Both the position numbers and the translations under genes were made by a program. The notes under the pieces were generated by a model, which did no database searches, was not told the origin of the DNA, and saw only the letters and a list, made by a program, of their open reading frames with translations. Positions 2,463 through 15,159 of a DNA stretch of 24,212 nucleotides are shown in pieces; within the stretch, counting starts at the first letter, position 1; each line of letters opens with the position of its first letter. The stretch is from a virus: positions 1 through 24,212 of IMG/VR virus record IMGVR_UViG_3300032236_000211; one strand, 5' to 3'.

Positions 2463-2746
2463 TTAATTTCTTCTAACATTTTGATAACCACGCCAAATAC
2501 AACTTCAATAAATGCGGCGTATGAACCATCTTTAATGTTGGGTCTATCTAACCAACTATCCCTTACTTCGGCTACGCGAACTGCAATATCGGCGGCTATG
2601 TTGCTTTCAATAACTGCTTCGTATTCTTGAGCGCGTTTAATTAGTTGCTTGTGATTTCTTTGGCACTTAGACATATCACTTGTTTTGCAAGCGTGTAAGT
2701 GTTCATATTCAAATACATCTATCGCCTCTTGAATTATAGTTTTCAC
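2459..2746 (-). CDS. Hypothetical protein, helical (95 aa)
   Basis: The 95-residue product is predicted largely helical from its heptad-like spacing. It contains HLHACKTSDMSKCQRNHKQL (two His, two Cys; residues about 16-35) near the N-terminus and a hydrophobic C-terminal helix AAFIEVVFGVVIKMLEEI. The start is GTG, overlapping the WhiB gene stop as GTGA. A purine-rich GGAGAGGG lies further upstream. I do not recognise the family. Its place inside the coupled operon is the main support for it being real. Confidence 0.7.
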   Translation of the reverse strand: MKTIIQEAIDVFEYEHLHACKTSDMSKCQRNHKQLIKRAQEYEAVIESNIAADIAVRVAEVRDSWLDRPNIKDGSYAAFIEVVFGVVIKMLEEIK

Positions 2747-3249
2747 GAATGTAGATCCCTCTCCATATTTGAATCTTCTAATATATCCTCTAACGGTACT
2801 CCAAAGATTTTTAAATCCTTGCGTAATGCTTGTAAAAAGCGCGAGTCGTAGGCTTTCTTAGCAATCTCACCGCGTTCCCAAGATGTAACGCCACCGAACA
2901 TACCCCAACGCTCTTTCTCATAGCCGTACTGATAGCAATCACGGCGTATTGGGCAAGAGAAACAGATTTGGCGAATGTATCGAATCTGAATATATCTATG
3001 GCGTAAAAGATCATCTTCAAGATAAAACAAATCCGTATTGATACCTTTGCAATTAGCTCGTTCCCACTCAATCTTTTTCTCAGGCTTAGCGGGCTTAACT
3101 ATTTTGCTTAATAATTGATCTAGATCATCTTGGCTATAAGTATCGTGTTCGAATTCTTCAAGTTCTTTGCGCTTTACCCAACGGCGAATTGTTTTTTCTG
3201 TAACGCCGTAACGCACCATCGCATCTTCAACTGTTATTTTCCTTGGCAT
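2743..3249 (-). CDS. WhiB-family [4Fe-4S] regulator with N-terminal HTH domain
   Basis: The 168-residue protein combines two domains. Residues about 4-48 form an excisionase/MerR-like helix-turn-helix (ITVEDAMVRYGVTEKTIRRW). Residues about 62-130 are a WhiB-like module with C67, C96, C99 and C105 (C-x28-C-x2-C-x5-C), followed by WGMFGG at 115-120, the WhiB G-rich turn. WhiB proteins are actinobacterial iron-sulfur regulators that usually bind the main sigma factor, and phage copies are known to alter host transcription. The start at 3249 is chosen because AGGGGAAAT lies directly upstream; an earlier start would lengthen the overlap with the Cas4-like gene from 16 to 49 bases. Canonical WhiB proteins have no separate N-terminal HTH. 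The remaining C-terminal tail (131-168) is unassigned. Confidence 0.88.
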   Translation of the reverse strand: MPRKITVEDAMVRYGVTEKTIRRWVKRKELEEFEHDTYSQDDLDQLLSKIVKPAKPEKKIEWERANCKGINTDLFYLEDDLLRHRYIQIRYIRQICFSCPIRRDCYQYGYEKERWGMFGGVTSWERGEIAKKAYDSRFLQALRKDLKIFGVPLEDILEDSNMERDLHS

Positions 3250-3887
3250 CCAATTTCCCCTGTTCGATCGTAGTAACTGCAATAGTTTTGGCAGAAGAAA
3301 ACTGCCGATTTTTCGGGAGGTGGTGGGGATTGCATCTCCTTAATTTCATTTAACCAAGCCAAACCTTGATCGGCTTGCGATTGATCGTATGGTGCTTGCC
3401 AAACTTTAATATCCAACATCTTGCCATCTCTAGGAATAGCAACTAGGGCTACCTGCTCAACTTCATAACCGTTTTGAGTAAGTAAATGACCGTAAAGTTG
3501 CACTTGCATTTTTTGTTGTGAGCTTGGAAACTTCGCCAACCCTTTAAGCGTGGTTGTTTTCCAATCAGCCACCAACTTAGCCGACCTAGAATAAAAATCA
3601 CAATGCCCCTTGAGTTCCGGTACTGAGAATTCTTGTTCAATGAGAAAGTCCTCACCAAACAAATCGAGTGCCGATAACGCTTCTTGGATCGTGTGATGGA
3701 TAGCAGTACCGAGTATCGCACTTAGATTCTCCGTATCGTGATTTGTTTTAGGTGTTTGGTTGATGATGTGCCAAGCCTGCCTGCGACATCCACCAACCGA
3801 ACTTGCACCGATCTCTACCTGCACCGAGCGATCTTTAACGCTATCAGCTTCTCTCAGCGCAGTAGTTAAGGTTTTAACTATGTCCAT
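3234..3887 (-). CDS. Cas4/RecB-like PD-(D/E)XK nuclease with probable Fe-S cluster
   Basis: The 217-residue protein has the RecB-nuclease core: H64/H65 in GTAIHHTIQEA, G94-H-C-D97, D108-W-K110 (the D-x-K catalytic pair), and QVQLYG at 128-133. Four Cys, C34 (GGCRRQAW) and C199, C203 and C214 near the C-terminus, match the split Fe-S ligand pattern of Cas4 and AddB nucleases. It probably resects DNA ends for phage recombination, working with the annealing-like protein encoded upstream in the same operon. AAGG lies five bases before the ATG. The start overlaps the C2H2-finger gene by 14 bases. No cas genes or repeats are nearby, so a CRISPR role is not suggested. Confidence 0.88.
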   Translation of the reverse strand: MDIVKTLTTALREADSVKDRSVQVEIGASSVGGCRRQAWHIINQTPKTNHDTENLSAILGTAIHHTIQEALSALDLFGEDFLIEQEFSVPELKGHCDFYSRSAKLVADWKTTTLKGLAKFPSSQQKMQVQLYGHLLTQNGYEVEQVALVAIPRDGKMLDIKVWQAPYDQSQADQGLAWLNEIKEMQSPPPPEKSAVFFCQNYCSYYDRTGEIGCQGK

Positions 3888-5417: not shown

Positions 5418-5439
5418 TTTCTTTCCCCTGACGAAAGCG

Positions 5440-5469
5440 AAAAGCCCCGGCATCTTCACCGGGGCTTTT
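5440..5469. terminator. Bidirectional intrinsic terminator
   Basis: A perfect 11-bp stem AAAAGCCCCGG / CCGGGGCTTTT encloses an 8-base loop, with A and T runs on both sides. It lies between the end of the rightward gene (5417) and the end of the leftward gene (5485), so it can stop transcription from both directions. Confidence 0.93.
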
Positions 5470-5484
5470 ACTTTGACGGATTAC

Positions 5485-5787
5485 TTATTCAGTTACTTTT
5501 ACAAAGTGAGTGTTTTTTAATTCAGGATTGTATTTCATCCAATTTTTAACGCACTCATTACCTAGTCGAATAATTTCGCCATCGGTTGAATCAAATGAAA
5601 TAATTGCATCTCTTTGCCAAACATAACGAACTAACCAACCAGTTCTTTCAGCCATTCCTTTGCCACAATGTGCGCAACGATTTTCTTCTGCAAAACCGTT
5701 TTTATTTGCTGATTCGTTATTACGAAACCAATTTTCAGTAGCACCCATTCCGCCACATTCAATAATTGCTGATGTTGTTGTAGTCAT
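5485..5787 (-). CDS. Small zinc-binding-like protein (100 aa)
   Basis: The 100-residue protein has a CxxC knuckle at C38/C41 (RCAHCGKGM) and a later LGNEC (C79), with TGWLVRYVW between them. This resembles treble-clef or zinc-ribbon phage proteins that end in a G-x-x-C knuckle. C11 may be a fourth ligand. The ATG at 5787 follows GGAGG by six bases; the longer frame would bury that site. It forms its own short unit: a good promoter 45-75 bases upstream and the bidirectional terminator just after the stop. Function is unknown. Confidence 0.75.
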   Translation of the reverse strand: MTTTTSAIIECGGMGATENWFRNNESANKNGFAEENRCAHCGKGMAERTGWLVRYVWQRDAIISFDSTDGEIIRLGNECVKNWMKYNPELKNTHFVKVTE

Positions 5788-11859: not shown

Positions 11860-13134
11860 CTACTTTGTTCCGTTTTTAATCATACTTGTAAGACCCGGAC
11901 TTGAGCCAAATATATTCAAAGTTGTGTTAGTAACCGTACCACGCTCTTGCGATTTTACCGAAGGTGTTTTAACTTTGCTTGATTTAGTATTAACAGGACC
12001 TCTTATTACTCCACCAAGATTTGGCAAATCAGGAAGATTGCCCGACATTGGATTGTAAGGAGTTGATTTCTTTTTCTTAAGAAGTTGTTCTGCTTTAATT
12101 CCACCATAAATAGCCGCACCGCCAGCAATCAAAGGAATGGCAGTACCAGCAAGAGCCGCAGTAGCGGCAACCGCGCTTAAACCACCTGTTGCAAATGCTT
12201 CTGCAACGCCAGCAATTCCAGCCGCAACTGCTAACGCTCGCATAGTGCTAATAACATCTTTAAGAACACCAATAAAAGCAATAATTTTAGAAGTACCCCA
12301 AAGAAGGCCTAGAGCAATACCAAAATCTTTAACTAAAGTTAAATGTCCTGAAAACCAATCGCCTAATTCTTTTAATTTAGGTATGCCTGTTTTAATTAAC
12401 CAATCAGTAAATTTTTGCGCGTAAGGCACTAATTCAGTACCTATGCTAATTGCTAAAGCATTAAAATTGGCTTTGGCAATTTGTAATTTACCCGGCAAGG
12501 TTTCGCCAAATGCTTTAGCTAAATTACCTGTTCTATCTTCGATTGCTTTTAAGATTTGTTCAAAACTAGCACCTTTTGGAATAGTCTTACCAATAGCAAT
12601 ACCTAAATCGCCAAGACCTTTAGCTTGTCCTACGGATGCGCGAGCAATAAGTGTTCCTGCATCGGCTAATGAAATTTGCTTGTAACGCGCTAAATCTGCG
12701 GCTACGCCTAAAGAATTTAATGCTAATTGAGGACTACCTGATGCAGTAGTCATTTTAGTTAAAGCATCGTAAGTTTCACCATAGGTAAAACCAAGATTTT
12801 TCATTTGATCTGCGTGTGCTTTAATTATAGGTTCGGCGGCGGCAAAACTTACACCTGTATCTTTAACCGCAGTTTCTAATCTGACTTGCGATTGTTCAAA
12901 TGAATCTAACGCTTTAAGACTTGCGCCACCTAGAATACCGATTGTGCCTGCTAATCCTAAAAAGGCAGTTCCGGCTAATTTGCCTGCTCGTTCCATTTTG
13001 CCAAGCGCGCCACCTGCAAGAACACCATTTTTTTCCATCTTTGCAAGCTCAGTATTAACTTTGCCAAATTCAGCAATAGCTTCTGTTGCTTTAGCTTGAA
13101 CTTCAAATATAACGGGAGGAAAGAACTCAGCCAT
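11860..13134 (-). CDS. Short tape measure protein
   Basis: The 424-residue protein has the hallmarks of a tape measure: a helical N-terminal region (VQAKATEAIAEFGKVNTELA), a TMP core with DSFEQSQVRLETAVKDTG (about 78-95) and LGDLGIAIGKTIPKGASFEQ, and a long hydrophobic helical region (about 268-345, Ala/Gly/Ile-rich). A basic KKKKS linker and a low-complexity tail follow. It sets tail length and helps DNA entry. At 424 residues it is short; the rule of about 0.15 nm per residue would give a tail near 64 nm. The ATG at 13134 follows AAGGGGG; GTG three bases earlier is too close to that site. Confidence 0.88.
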   Translation of the reverse strand: MAEFFPPVIFEVQAKATEAIAEFGKVNTELAKMEKNGVLAGGALGKMERAGKLAGTAFLGLAGTIGILGGASLKALDSFEQSQVRLETAVKDTGVSFAAAEPIIKAHADQMKNLGFTYGETYDALTKMTTASGSPQLALNSLGVAADLARYKQISLADAGTLIARASVGQAKGLGDLGIAIGKTIPKGASFEQILKAIEDRTGNLAKAFGETLPGKLQIAKANFNALAISIGTELVPYAQKFTDWLIKTGIPKLKELGDWFSGHLTLVKDFGIALGLLWGTSKIIAFIGVLKDVISTMRALAVAAGIAGVAEAFATGGLSAVAATAALAGTAIPLIAGGAAIYGGIKAEQLLKKKKSTPYNPMSGNLPDLPNLGGVIRGPVNTKSSKVKTPSVKSQERGTVTNTTLNIFGSSPGLTSMIKNGTK

Positions 13135-13136
13135 CA

Positions 13137-13556
13137 CTACCCCCTTAGACTTAGATGCTTACGCATAATGGACATTGCAACTCTTTGGAACTTTTCAAAT
13201 GCAGGTTTCATATATGGGAATTTCTGATTATCGCGCCAGCTCTTAGGGGCATACTTACCGCCTAATTCAAGTGCGCGACCATAAACAATAGTTGGGCCAA
13301 CTACGGCTGAATAAGTAGCATAACCTTGACGATAGCGTTCGCCTTTAATAGATCGGCGCAAATTACCTGTGCGGTTCATAGGTGGCTCGCCCGATACGGC
13401 GCGTTCGCCGGGTTGCCGTCTGCCTTTGATTTCTTCTTTAGCATATTGAGTAAGAGTATTCATCATTTCATCACGCGCCATACGCGCACCTGTGTCTAAT
13501 TTATCGGTGGCTTTGGTAACTGCTCGGATGACTTGATTTATATTACTGTTGATCAA
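13137..13556 (-). CDS. HK97 gp10-like head-tail/tail completion protein
   Basis: The 139-residue protein matches the HK97 gp10-like pattern: basic helical N-terminus, then GEPPMNRTGNLRRSIKGERY (about residues 56-75), AVVGPTIVYGRALELGGKYA and FPYMKPAFEKF at the end. Such proteins act at the head-tail joint. Here the gene lies after the tail-assembly chaperone and before the tape measure, not between adaptor and tail terminator. The start appears to be TTG, with AGGACAGG seven to twelve bases upstream, overlapping the end of the chaperone extension frame by 14 bases. ATG codons further in would remove part of the domain's N-terminal helix. Confidence 0.75.
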   Translation of the reverse strand: MINSNINQVIRAVTKATDKLDTGARMARDEMMNTLTQYAKEEIKGRRQPGERAVSGEPPMNRTGNLRRSIKGERYRQGYATYSAVVGPTIVYGRALELGGKYAPKSWRDNQKFPYMKPAFEKFQRVAMSIMRKHLSLRG

Positions 13557-14090
13557 TTTGAACCTGTCCTACTGCGTTATGAATTGCGACTAACCAATCA
13601 ATCATAGGTGCGGGTTGGTTATCGGTTTCTTCAATAGTCCAACCAAATTCCTTAGCACAAAAATAATAAACAAATTGATCGTCAGGATAGGTTAGATCGG
13701 GATGCCTTTCGTGGCCCTCCAACGACTCCTTTAGCCGTTGGACTTGTCTAAAGGGCTATCGGGATTCGATTCGTTTTCAGGTGTTTTTGCAAAATTAGGG
13801 AACAAAATTTCTTGGGCTTTATTTGCTTCAATAGCGAGCGCATCATAATCAGCAATTTCAAGTTCGCCAATAGATGAAATTCGAATTGATGGCAAAACTA
13901 GATCAAGAGTCCAATCTTTAACCAAGAAAGCAATTAAGCCTTCGGTCATATCTAGACTCTGAATTAAAGCGTTATCTTGTTCAGATAAAGATGCCCAAAC
14001 CTTTTTGCGGTCTTTGTGGCGCATCTCTGTTGCATCGCGTAGCGTAACTTCTGCCTTAGATTTAGGCAGAATCATTTTTGTATCAGGCAT
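13543..14090 (-). CDS. Tail assembly chaperone, long form made by -1 frameshift
   Basis: Reading the first chaperone frame from 14090 to the slippery heptamer and then shifting -1 at 13749 gives a 182-residue fusion ending at 13543. The extension of 68 residues begins RQVQRLKESLEGHERHPDLT and continues with QFVYYFCAKEFGWTIEETDN and APMIDWLVAIHNAVG, typical of the second (T-like) chaperone domain. The extension frame is closed by a TAG just before the slip site and has no good start of its own, except a TTG close to AAAGGAG. Long and short forms usually act together to load tail tube protein on the tape measure. The frameshift is inferred from the sequence, not measured. Confidence 0.82.
13731..14090 (-). 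CDS. Tail assembly chaperone, short form
   Basis: The 119-residue protein begins MPDTKMILPKSKAEVTLRDA and is helical, with VWASLSEQDNALIQSLD and a C-terminal EANKAQEILFPNF, then a disordered ESNPDSPLDKSNG tail. It lies between the major tail protein and the tape measure, the usual place for the G-type chaperone. AAGGA lies five bases before the ATG at 14090; the longer frame would run through the inverted repeat at 14125-14161. Its last ten codons contain the CCCTTTA slip site used for the long form. Confidence 0.8.
   Translation of the reverse strand: MPDTKMILPKSKAEVTLRDATEMRHKDRKKVWASLSEQDNALIQSLDMTEGLIAFLVKDWTLDLVLPSIRISSIGELEIADYDALAIEANKAQEILFPNFAKTPENESNPDSPLDKSNG
13749..13755 (-). promoter_or_regulatory. 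-1 ribosomal slippery heptamer CCCTTTA
   Basis: In the chaperone reading frame the codons are CCT TTA preceded by C, giving a canonical X-XXY-YYZ heptamer (C CCT TTA). After a -1 slip the tRNAs re-pair on CCC TTT and reading continues AGA CAA GTC into a frame open for 68 codons. The -1 frame has TAG immediately upstream and the 0 frame stops 16 bases downstream of the heptamer. Confidence 0.82.
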
Positions 14091-14172: not shown

Positions 14173-15159
14173 TTATGCGTATGTACCCGAAGCCTTTGCG
14201 TTCTGTAATGTCCATTTGATAGGTGAGTAACCTGATGTAGCACCTGCATCTGTGGTGTTACCTTGGGCATTTAGATCGATTTCGATTTCTACAAAGTCCT
14301 TTGAGCGATCAATCATTGCCGCTACATAAGCACCCTTTGTTACAGTTGCTTGGATTTGAGTAGCAGTTGATCCTGTACCTTGCGACCAGTTAATTGTGAT
14401 TGCAGGTTGGGTATTTGTAAGGAATCGGGTTAATTCAGTATCAGCTTCCATTAGGAAACGAATCTTGCCCTTAACCTCTAAAGCACCTACGAATACTGAG
14501 TAAGGATTCTTGGTGTTAGAAATACCAAAGATAGGTGTAACAGGGCGAGTCATATCTATATTGCCTTCAACTGAGTTTGTGATTTGTGTGCCACCGATTG
14601 TTACGGTTGCAATCCAAGTTGGGGTAGGCAATACGGTTGAGAATGATGGGGTTGGGGTTGAAGCAGTTGCAGAAGCGTAGCCTGTTCCCTTTGCATCGTA
14701 ATCAAGTAGTCCGTCTGATGTAAATTTTAGAGATACATCGTGAATTTGAATACCTGCGTATGCGCGAACATTTGCGGCATAAAAATCGGTAAGTGTGTAA
14801 GCAACAGGTTGAGCATCTGATCCTGTTCCTGTTGCGTTCTTTAGCGAGATCGCGTGGGTGTATGGGGCTGATGCACCTGTTGTGGTTACATCGCCAAGCA
14901 ATCCTGCAAGTGAGTATCCGAAGGTGTCTGCAAATACAGGGCCACCAAAATCAAATGTTGAGTAGGTACGGCCTTGGATGTAGTTGTAGTTCTTTACAAG
15001 GCTACCGCGTAGGCCCTCATCGTATAACTCGCCAATTAGATCAACAGGCTTTAACTTTGATGCAGTAACAGGGATGAAGTCCGTTGGTGTAACGGCAGTT
15101 CCCTTTGTCGCTTCCTTAGCGATGCCGAGGTACGAGCGGTGGGTATTTTGTACGGACAT
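14173..15159 (-). CDS. Major tail (tube) protein
   Basis: The 328-residue protein begins SVQNTHRSYLGIAKEATKGT, followed by AVTPTDFIPV, the classical start of siphovirus tail tube proteins of actinophages (LGIAKE-x-T-x-GTAV). It is beta-rich, with PVFADTFGYSLAGLLG and a central EGNIDMTRPVTPIFG. The C-terminal part (about 255-328) ends in YSPIKWTLQNAKASG. It polymerises into the tail tube. The start couples to the 55-residue gene as TAATG with GGAG upstream. A stem-loop follows the stop. Confidence 0.9.
   Translation of the reverse strand: MSVQNTHRSYLGIAKEATKGTAVTPTDFIPVTASKLKPVDLIGELYDEGLRGSLVKNYNYIQGRTYSTFDFGGPVFADTFGYSLAGLLGDVTTTGASAPYTHAISLKNATGTGSDAQPVAYTLTDFYAANVRAYAGIQIHDVSLKFTSDGLLDYDAKGTGYASATASTPTPSFSTVLPTPTWIATVTIGGTQITNSVEGNIDMTRPVTPIFGISNTKNPYSVFVGALEVKGKIRFLMEADTELTRFLTNTQPAITINWSQGTGSTATQIQATVTKGAYVAAMIDRSKDFVEIEIDLNAQGNTTDAGATSGYSPIKWTLQNAKASGTYA

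Follow-up and report, generated by a model that had tools for sequence, protein, structure and literature searches.

The window, a virus record of 24,212 bases analysed at its full length, very probably carries a siphovirus tail assembly chaperone locus on its minus strand. In this locus, the gene G would encode a protein of 119 aa, and a -1 slip near its end would join it, as a minority product, to a second reading frame (the extension, T), giving a predicted G-T fusion of 182 aa. The -1 frameshifting at the heptamer CCCTTTA had been proposed by the first-pass annotation, which was made from the letters of this DNA alone, and comparison with relatives strengthened the proposal: the slippery form of the site was kept through repeated changes of its letters.

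Anatomy of the locus and identity of its two parts

The coordinates of the features are listed in Table 1. Re-reading of the minus strand reproduced all the coordinates given earlier for G, CCCTTTA, the TAG and the 68-codon -1 frame, and a perfect X-XXY-YYZ heptamer was found in the right phase, as had been described. The 0-frame codons at the heptamer were CCT TTA, and after a -1 slip they would be CCC TTT, which is the phase of tandem slippage. In the -1 frame, the TAG stood directly ahead of the heptamer and was followed by 68 open codons up to the TAA. The last base of the heptamer was re-used by the first codon of the extension, AGA, and the overlap of the two frames was 7 codons.

Table 1. 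Features of the putative chaperone locus, its neighbouring genes and the WhiB-like gene in the window
Feature	Position	Strand	Evidence or remark
Tail tube (major tail) protein, upstream of the pair	14173..15159	-	Pfam Phage_tube_2 E 2.2e-19
Ribosome-binding-like site GGAAGG, ahead of G	14102-14097	-	sequence inspection
G (0-frame gene)	14090 (ATG) to 13731 (end of TAA)	-	119 aa + TAA
TAG closing the -1 frame, abutting the heptamer on its upstream side	13756..13758	-	
Slippery heptamer C CCT TTA	13749..13755	-	phase checked
Extension T (-1 frame)	13543..13749	-	68 codons + TAA (end at 13543)
Hairpin, 10-bp perfect stem, 5-nt loop	13718..13742	-	6 nt after the heptamer
AAAGGAG then TTG, -1 frame	13720..13732	-	rival start for a free extension
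HK97-gp10-like/Neck1-like gene	13137..13556	-	PHROG 5 E 1.4e-12; Pfam HK97-gp10_like below its cut-off
Tape measure protein	11860..13137	-	425 aa; PHROG 991 E 5.4e-10
WhiB-like protein	2743-3282		Pfam Whib E 1e-10; N-terminal helix-turn-helix match

The genes were arranged in the order tail tube, G/T pair, HK97-gp10-like gene and tape measure, and the TTG start of the HK97-gp10-like gene fell within the last part of the extension. The HK97-gp10-like family usually lies upstream of the tail tube gene. Among the relatives, the pair was followed by ORFs of the same sizes in the 16 loci examined, two of the 16 showing the first ORF only, and PHROG 5 matches confirmed four of the gp10-like ORFs. 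The annotated genomes of the Arthrobacter phages Mufasa8 and Sonali had the same gene order. The tape measure protein of the window was short, and a short tape measure protein suggests a short tail.

G was conserved in 26 aligned relatives. The G of the window had no Pfam match and no sequence match to a curated chaperone family, and a sequence search of solved structures with the G profile gave a single match, which was not significant (E 0.61). The AlphaFold model of G had a mean pLDDT of 83. Its two best matches among solved structures were YqbN (3klu; Z 7.3), which belongs to a chaperone family, and the HK97 tail assembly chaperone (2ob9_A; Z 5.9). The modelled fold of G resembled these two proteins over 84-86 aligned residues, with rmsd values of 2.9 and 3.8, at an identity of 5-12%; both Z-scores were middling (below 8), yet well above that of the next row. 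AcrIE3 (Z 2.0) also appeared in the structural comparison and was set aside. In the search of a viral library with the G model, no match reached E 0.001, and several of the weaker matches were named tail assembly chaperone.

The extension matched PHROG 9001, 'tail assembly chaperone' (E 3e-5; 17 of 20 members). Pairwise comparison of the region after the 0-frame stop gave dN/dS values of 0.02-0.34 in those 11 of 14 pairs for which a value was computable, and these values indicate that the extension is under purifying selection. The tail-assembly chaperone identity given to the locus in the first-pass annotation agreed with the gene order, with the PHROG 9001 match of the extension, and with the resemblance of the G model to YqbN and the HK97 chaperone.

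The WhiB-like protein encoded in the window bears on the host. Such a protein is a key indicator of actinophages, as cited in a paper on Nanopelagicales phages (PMC10202952), and the host of the present virus is likely actinobacterial. The GC content of the window was 42.5%. When species genomes were scanned, the single relative obtained was a weak one from a Bathyarchaeota assembly, and the scan pointed to no prophage or host species.

Conservation of the heptamer and the -1 frame in relatives

XXXYYYZ heptamers occurred at 22 of the 6,091 in-phase codon positions in 18 long ORFs elsewhere in the window, and from this background the chance of such a heptamer in an overlap of 7 codons was about 2.5%. 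Taken alone, the heptamer of the single window was suggestive, not decisive.

To avoid selecting on the extension, relatives were searched with the first protein (G) alone, which gave 464 relatives, of which the best 80 were kept. In these best 80 of 464, an in-phase CCCTTTA, CCCTTTC or CCCAAAA was present at the same spot in 57/57 distinct loci, and the extension was in the -1 frame in 56/56 distinct loci with a recognisable extension; in the remaining locus (L202), the heptamer was present and the extension was cut off by the contig end. The alignment to relatives that had been suggested as a check on CCCTTTA and on the -1 frame thus found both the in-phase heptamer and the frame conserved, with letters that vary. 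Relatives that had lost the heptamer while keeping both frames with independent starts had been named as evidence against frameshifting, and none was found among the 57 distinct contig loci from the best 80 of 464.

Searches with the extension led to a similar picture. When the extension was used as a query, 38 loci were obtained, and in 35 of them the match began right at a CCC heptamer; the three remote loci had AAAAAAC. With a profile of the extension, the best 80 of 92 viral loci and one locus from a species genome were collected, and together with the three remote loci they showed an in-phase heptamer in the overlap in 59/59 distinct loci. The G-based set (57) and the extension-based set (59) share contigs, and the two counts are not independent. 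Given the conservation in the relatives (57/57 and 59/59), chance is untenable as an explanation of the heptamer.

The same loci bear on two other accounts of the locus. A +1 frameshift was rejected, the extension being in the -1 frame in 56/56 loci (best 80 of 464). The two frames could also belong to a single gene that a mistake in assembly or sequencing had split, since a single base difference would join them and the source is a virus record; against this, the same -1 arrangement recurred in all 56 of those distinct loci and both parts are under purifying selection, and an error, already refuted by the relatives, has a vanishingly small probability.

A tree was constructed from 71 rows of the first protein plus the extension, with the shift-site codons left out. 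Omitted were loci in which G lacked an ATG or the extension was short or truncated, those containing ambiguous residues, and those whose protein was identical to another. Because rows were admitted to the tree only with a CCC heptamer, the unselected count of heptamers is that from the G-only set. CCCTTTA was present in 30 of the 71 rows, CCCTTTC in 29 and CCCAAAA in 12. On the tree, the heptamer switched type nine times or more and remained slippery each time; elsewhere in the same genes, XXXYYYZ occurred at 29 of 7,697 in-phase positions. The passage from TTT to AAA takes three base changes and alters a 0-frame residue, and these contigs showed slippery versions only. The comparison indicates that the conserved quantity at the shift site is its slippery form, not its letters.

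The TAG adjoined the heptamer directly in 43 of the 71 rows; in the other 28, TGA or TAA was found instead, with a single exception farther from the heptamer on its upstream side. On this comparison, the TAG just ahead of the heptamer is incidental. A conserved upstream element, GATAGCCC, was also considered. It appeared invariant in the first 22 relatives, but the adjacent TAG was present in only the 43 rows of the wider set, and the element was rejected. Much of the constancy of GATAGCCC would follow from the conserved Asp-Ser-Pro residues and the requirement for a C ahead of CCT.

The region downstream of the heptamer

Downstream of the heptamer, a hairpin was found (Table 1), and the 0-frame stop spanned the end of its first arm and its loop. 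The most studied spacing between a shift site and its stimulator is 5-9 nt according to a review (PMC5009743). The hairpin was absent from the first-pass annotation.

In an alignment of 12 relatives, 90% of the cells were paired at the positions of the stem, compared with 30-49% when the stem was slid by 1-3 columns; in an alignment of 22 relatives, the values were 78% and 33-46%. In both alignments, the count of two-sided changes in the hairpin pairs was not above that of the shuffles. Not all of the family kept the hairpin: folding after the heptamer was poor in several members (e.g., L016, L018, L070, L078, L085, and L032), and some other members folded into different stems. The hairpin is likely a stimulator in the lineage of the window, not a rule of the family. 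Four loci with CCCAAAA (L091, L096, L104, and L108) had in common another stem, of longer range, in which the differences seen in L108 appear to compensate each other.

The same bases contain a possible start for the extension. AAAGGAG was located 3 nt ahead of a -1-frame TTG (13722), right at the 0-frame stop, and on these grounds the extension might be a separate small gene that starts at this TTG and is coupled to the 0-frame stop. Several observations argued against such a gene. Among the 71 rows, an SD-like tetramer preceded a -1-frame start in only 3; up to codon 22, a -1-frame ATG was found in none, TTG or GTG in 30, and no ATG, GTG or TTG at all in 41. The conserved RxxxRL, with which the extension begins, precedes the TTG. 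The AAAGGAG/TTG site falls within the hairpin, and a separate gene would leave the slippery form of the heptamer unexplained. Because the SD-like tetramer was present in only 3 of the 71 rows and ATG in none, an independent start at TTG 13722 was rejected as a general route to the extension, and a separate gene is considered very improbable. The statement of the first-pass annotation that the extension has no convincing start of its own held for the family, given the 3 rows of 71, and was slightly too strong for the window, where the TTG and its AAAGGAG, not mentioned in that annotation, are present.

A mixed origin was weighed for the window's own lineage, in which the fusion would be made by frameshifting and some free extension would be made from TTG 13722. 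AAAGGAG and the TTG were kept in the window and its nearest kin, which speaks for it; however, the same bases are accounted for as the loop and an arm of the hairpin, and a close relative (L008) had the hairpin without the TTG. Production by both routes is regarded as unlikely, if somewhat less so than a separate gene. Frameshifting at the heptamer is the reading followed below.

A trade-off between the strength of the motif and that of the downstream structure, in which a weaker heptamer would be expected with a stronger stem, was also examined and found no support, since the mean z of downstream folding was alike for the three types: -1.70 for CCCAAAA (11 rows), -1.72 for CCCTTTA (12 rows), and -1.56 for CCCTTTC (14 rows).

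Comparison with known chaperone frameshifts and proposed mechanism

The heptamer of phage lambda is G GGA AAG, whereas the window has C CCT TTA. The window also differs from lambda in its strong lineage-specific hairpin, in the HK97-gp10-like gene before the tape measure, and in a G that lacks a sequence match to a curated chaperone family. The arrangement is otherwise like that of lambda G/GT, in which two overlapping frames lie between the tail tube and tape measure genes and a -1 slip occurs near the end of the first (PMC5009743). The same review describes the frameshifting of lambda G/GT as established and as widely conserved in long-tailed phages. Joined chaperone genes were annotated in 2,397 of 3,679 SEA-PHAGES genomes (PMC10885494).

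Three annotated phages showed a comparable arrangement, and in the records of all three (Sonali, Mufasa8, and Blastoid) the two parts were entered as separate genes. In Arthrobacter phage Sonali (L128), gp13 and gp14 resembled the pair of the window in the -1 relation, the start of the extension and the gene order. Within 5469-5729, an in-phase CCCTTTT stood directly behind a TAG, with the -1 frame open through gp14; gp14 was annotated from an internal ATG, and the fusion was not annotated in the record. Arthrobacter phage Mufasa8 (L127; gp13/gp14, about 5430-5712) was also similar in gene order, -1 relation and extension start; unlike the window, it had CCCTACT at the homologous place, so that the perfect heptamer was lost. 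Mufasa8 was the one exception to the perfect in-phase heptamer among the relatives examined. Because its -1 frame was open and similar right from CCCTACT and the ATG of the annotated downstream ORF lay further in, Mufasa8 reads as a variant shift site and not as a refutation. The C_CC.U tetramer is weakly shifty with a strong stimulator (PMC4066793), and on that account the C_CC.U just before CCCTACT of Mufasa8 is a candidate shift site.

In Bacillus phage Blastoid (L126), gp26 was annotated as a tail assembly chaperone and lay in the -1 frame of gp25; gp25 carried an in-phase AAAAAAG at its end, and the -1 frame stayed open through gp26 (2944-3201). Blastoid differed from the window in being very distant (E 0.8) and in having another heptamer. 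In Thermoanaerobacterium phage THSA-485A, inspection of the translation suggested that the gene after the tail protein was unlike G. Seven Listeria phage matches covered 16 residues only; Leo2 was in the same list.

All three CCC heptamers of the family are within the 21 motifs that were chosen as shifty in E. coli (PMC4066793): C_CC.U_UU.A and C_CC.A_AA.A were among the 18 shifty motifs of the E. coli test, and C_CC.U_UU.C was added for its high level. Under the rules given in that paper for E. coli, the most efficient motif classes include CCCTTTC and CCCAAAA and exclude CCCTTTA, and motifs ending in UUA rank below those ending in UUY and AAR. In the SEA-PHAGES data, all four bases were found at each position of the heptamer (PMC10885494). 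Outside phages, a paper on Giardia virus disputes an earlier proposal of CCCUUUA (PMC8230311), and CCCUUUC appears in a paper on a fungal RNA virus (PMC9029208). Among the open-access papers listed for tail assembly and CCC heptamers, none described, by title and term counts, such a heptamer at a phage tail chaperone shift site.

The shift site may perhaps be viewed as a natural experiment, a reading put forward tentatively and held to be possible, not probable. The heptamers CCCTTTA, CCCTTTC and CCCAAAA, whose classes differ in E. coli, would have been interchanged repeatedly, lineage-specific stems would have come and gone, and at the non-canonical C CCT ACT of Mufasa8 slippage would have to be brought about by the proline tRNA in the P site or by the preceding C_CC.U.

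In the proposed mechanism, most ribosomes would read the 0 frame only and produce the 119-aa chaperone G. A minority would slip back by one base at the moment when CCT and TTA fill the P and A sites, and the tRNAs would re-pair with CCC and TTT. In the lineage of the window, the slip may be aided by the stem-loop of 10 bp six bases downstream. The slipped ribosomes would read 68 more codons and produce the 182-aa fusion GT. On the model of lambda, G would coat the tape measure protein, with T as the part of GT that would recruit the tail tube protein.

The principle of chaperone frameshifting is long familiar from phage lambda, and the present locus adds to the lambda G/GT kind. Recognising the extension gives a full annotation to a tail gene that is otherwise split or missed by gene callers. 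The family offers many natural shift sites in which heptamers and downstream stems have changed, a large series that is useful for the question of how a set level of frameshifting is kept.
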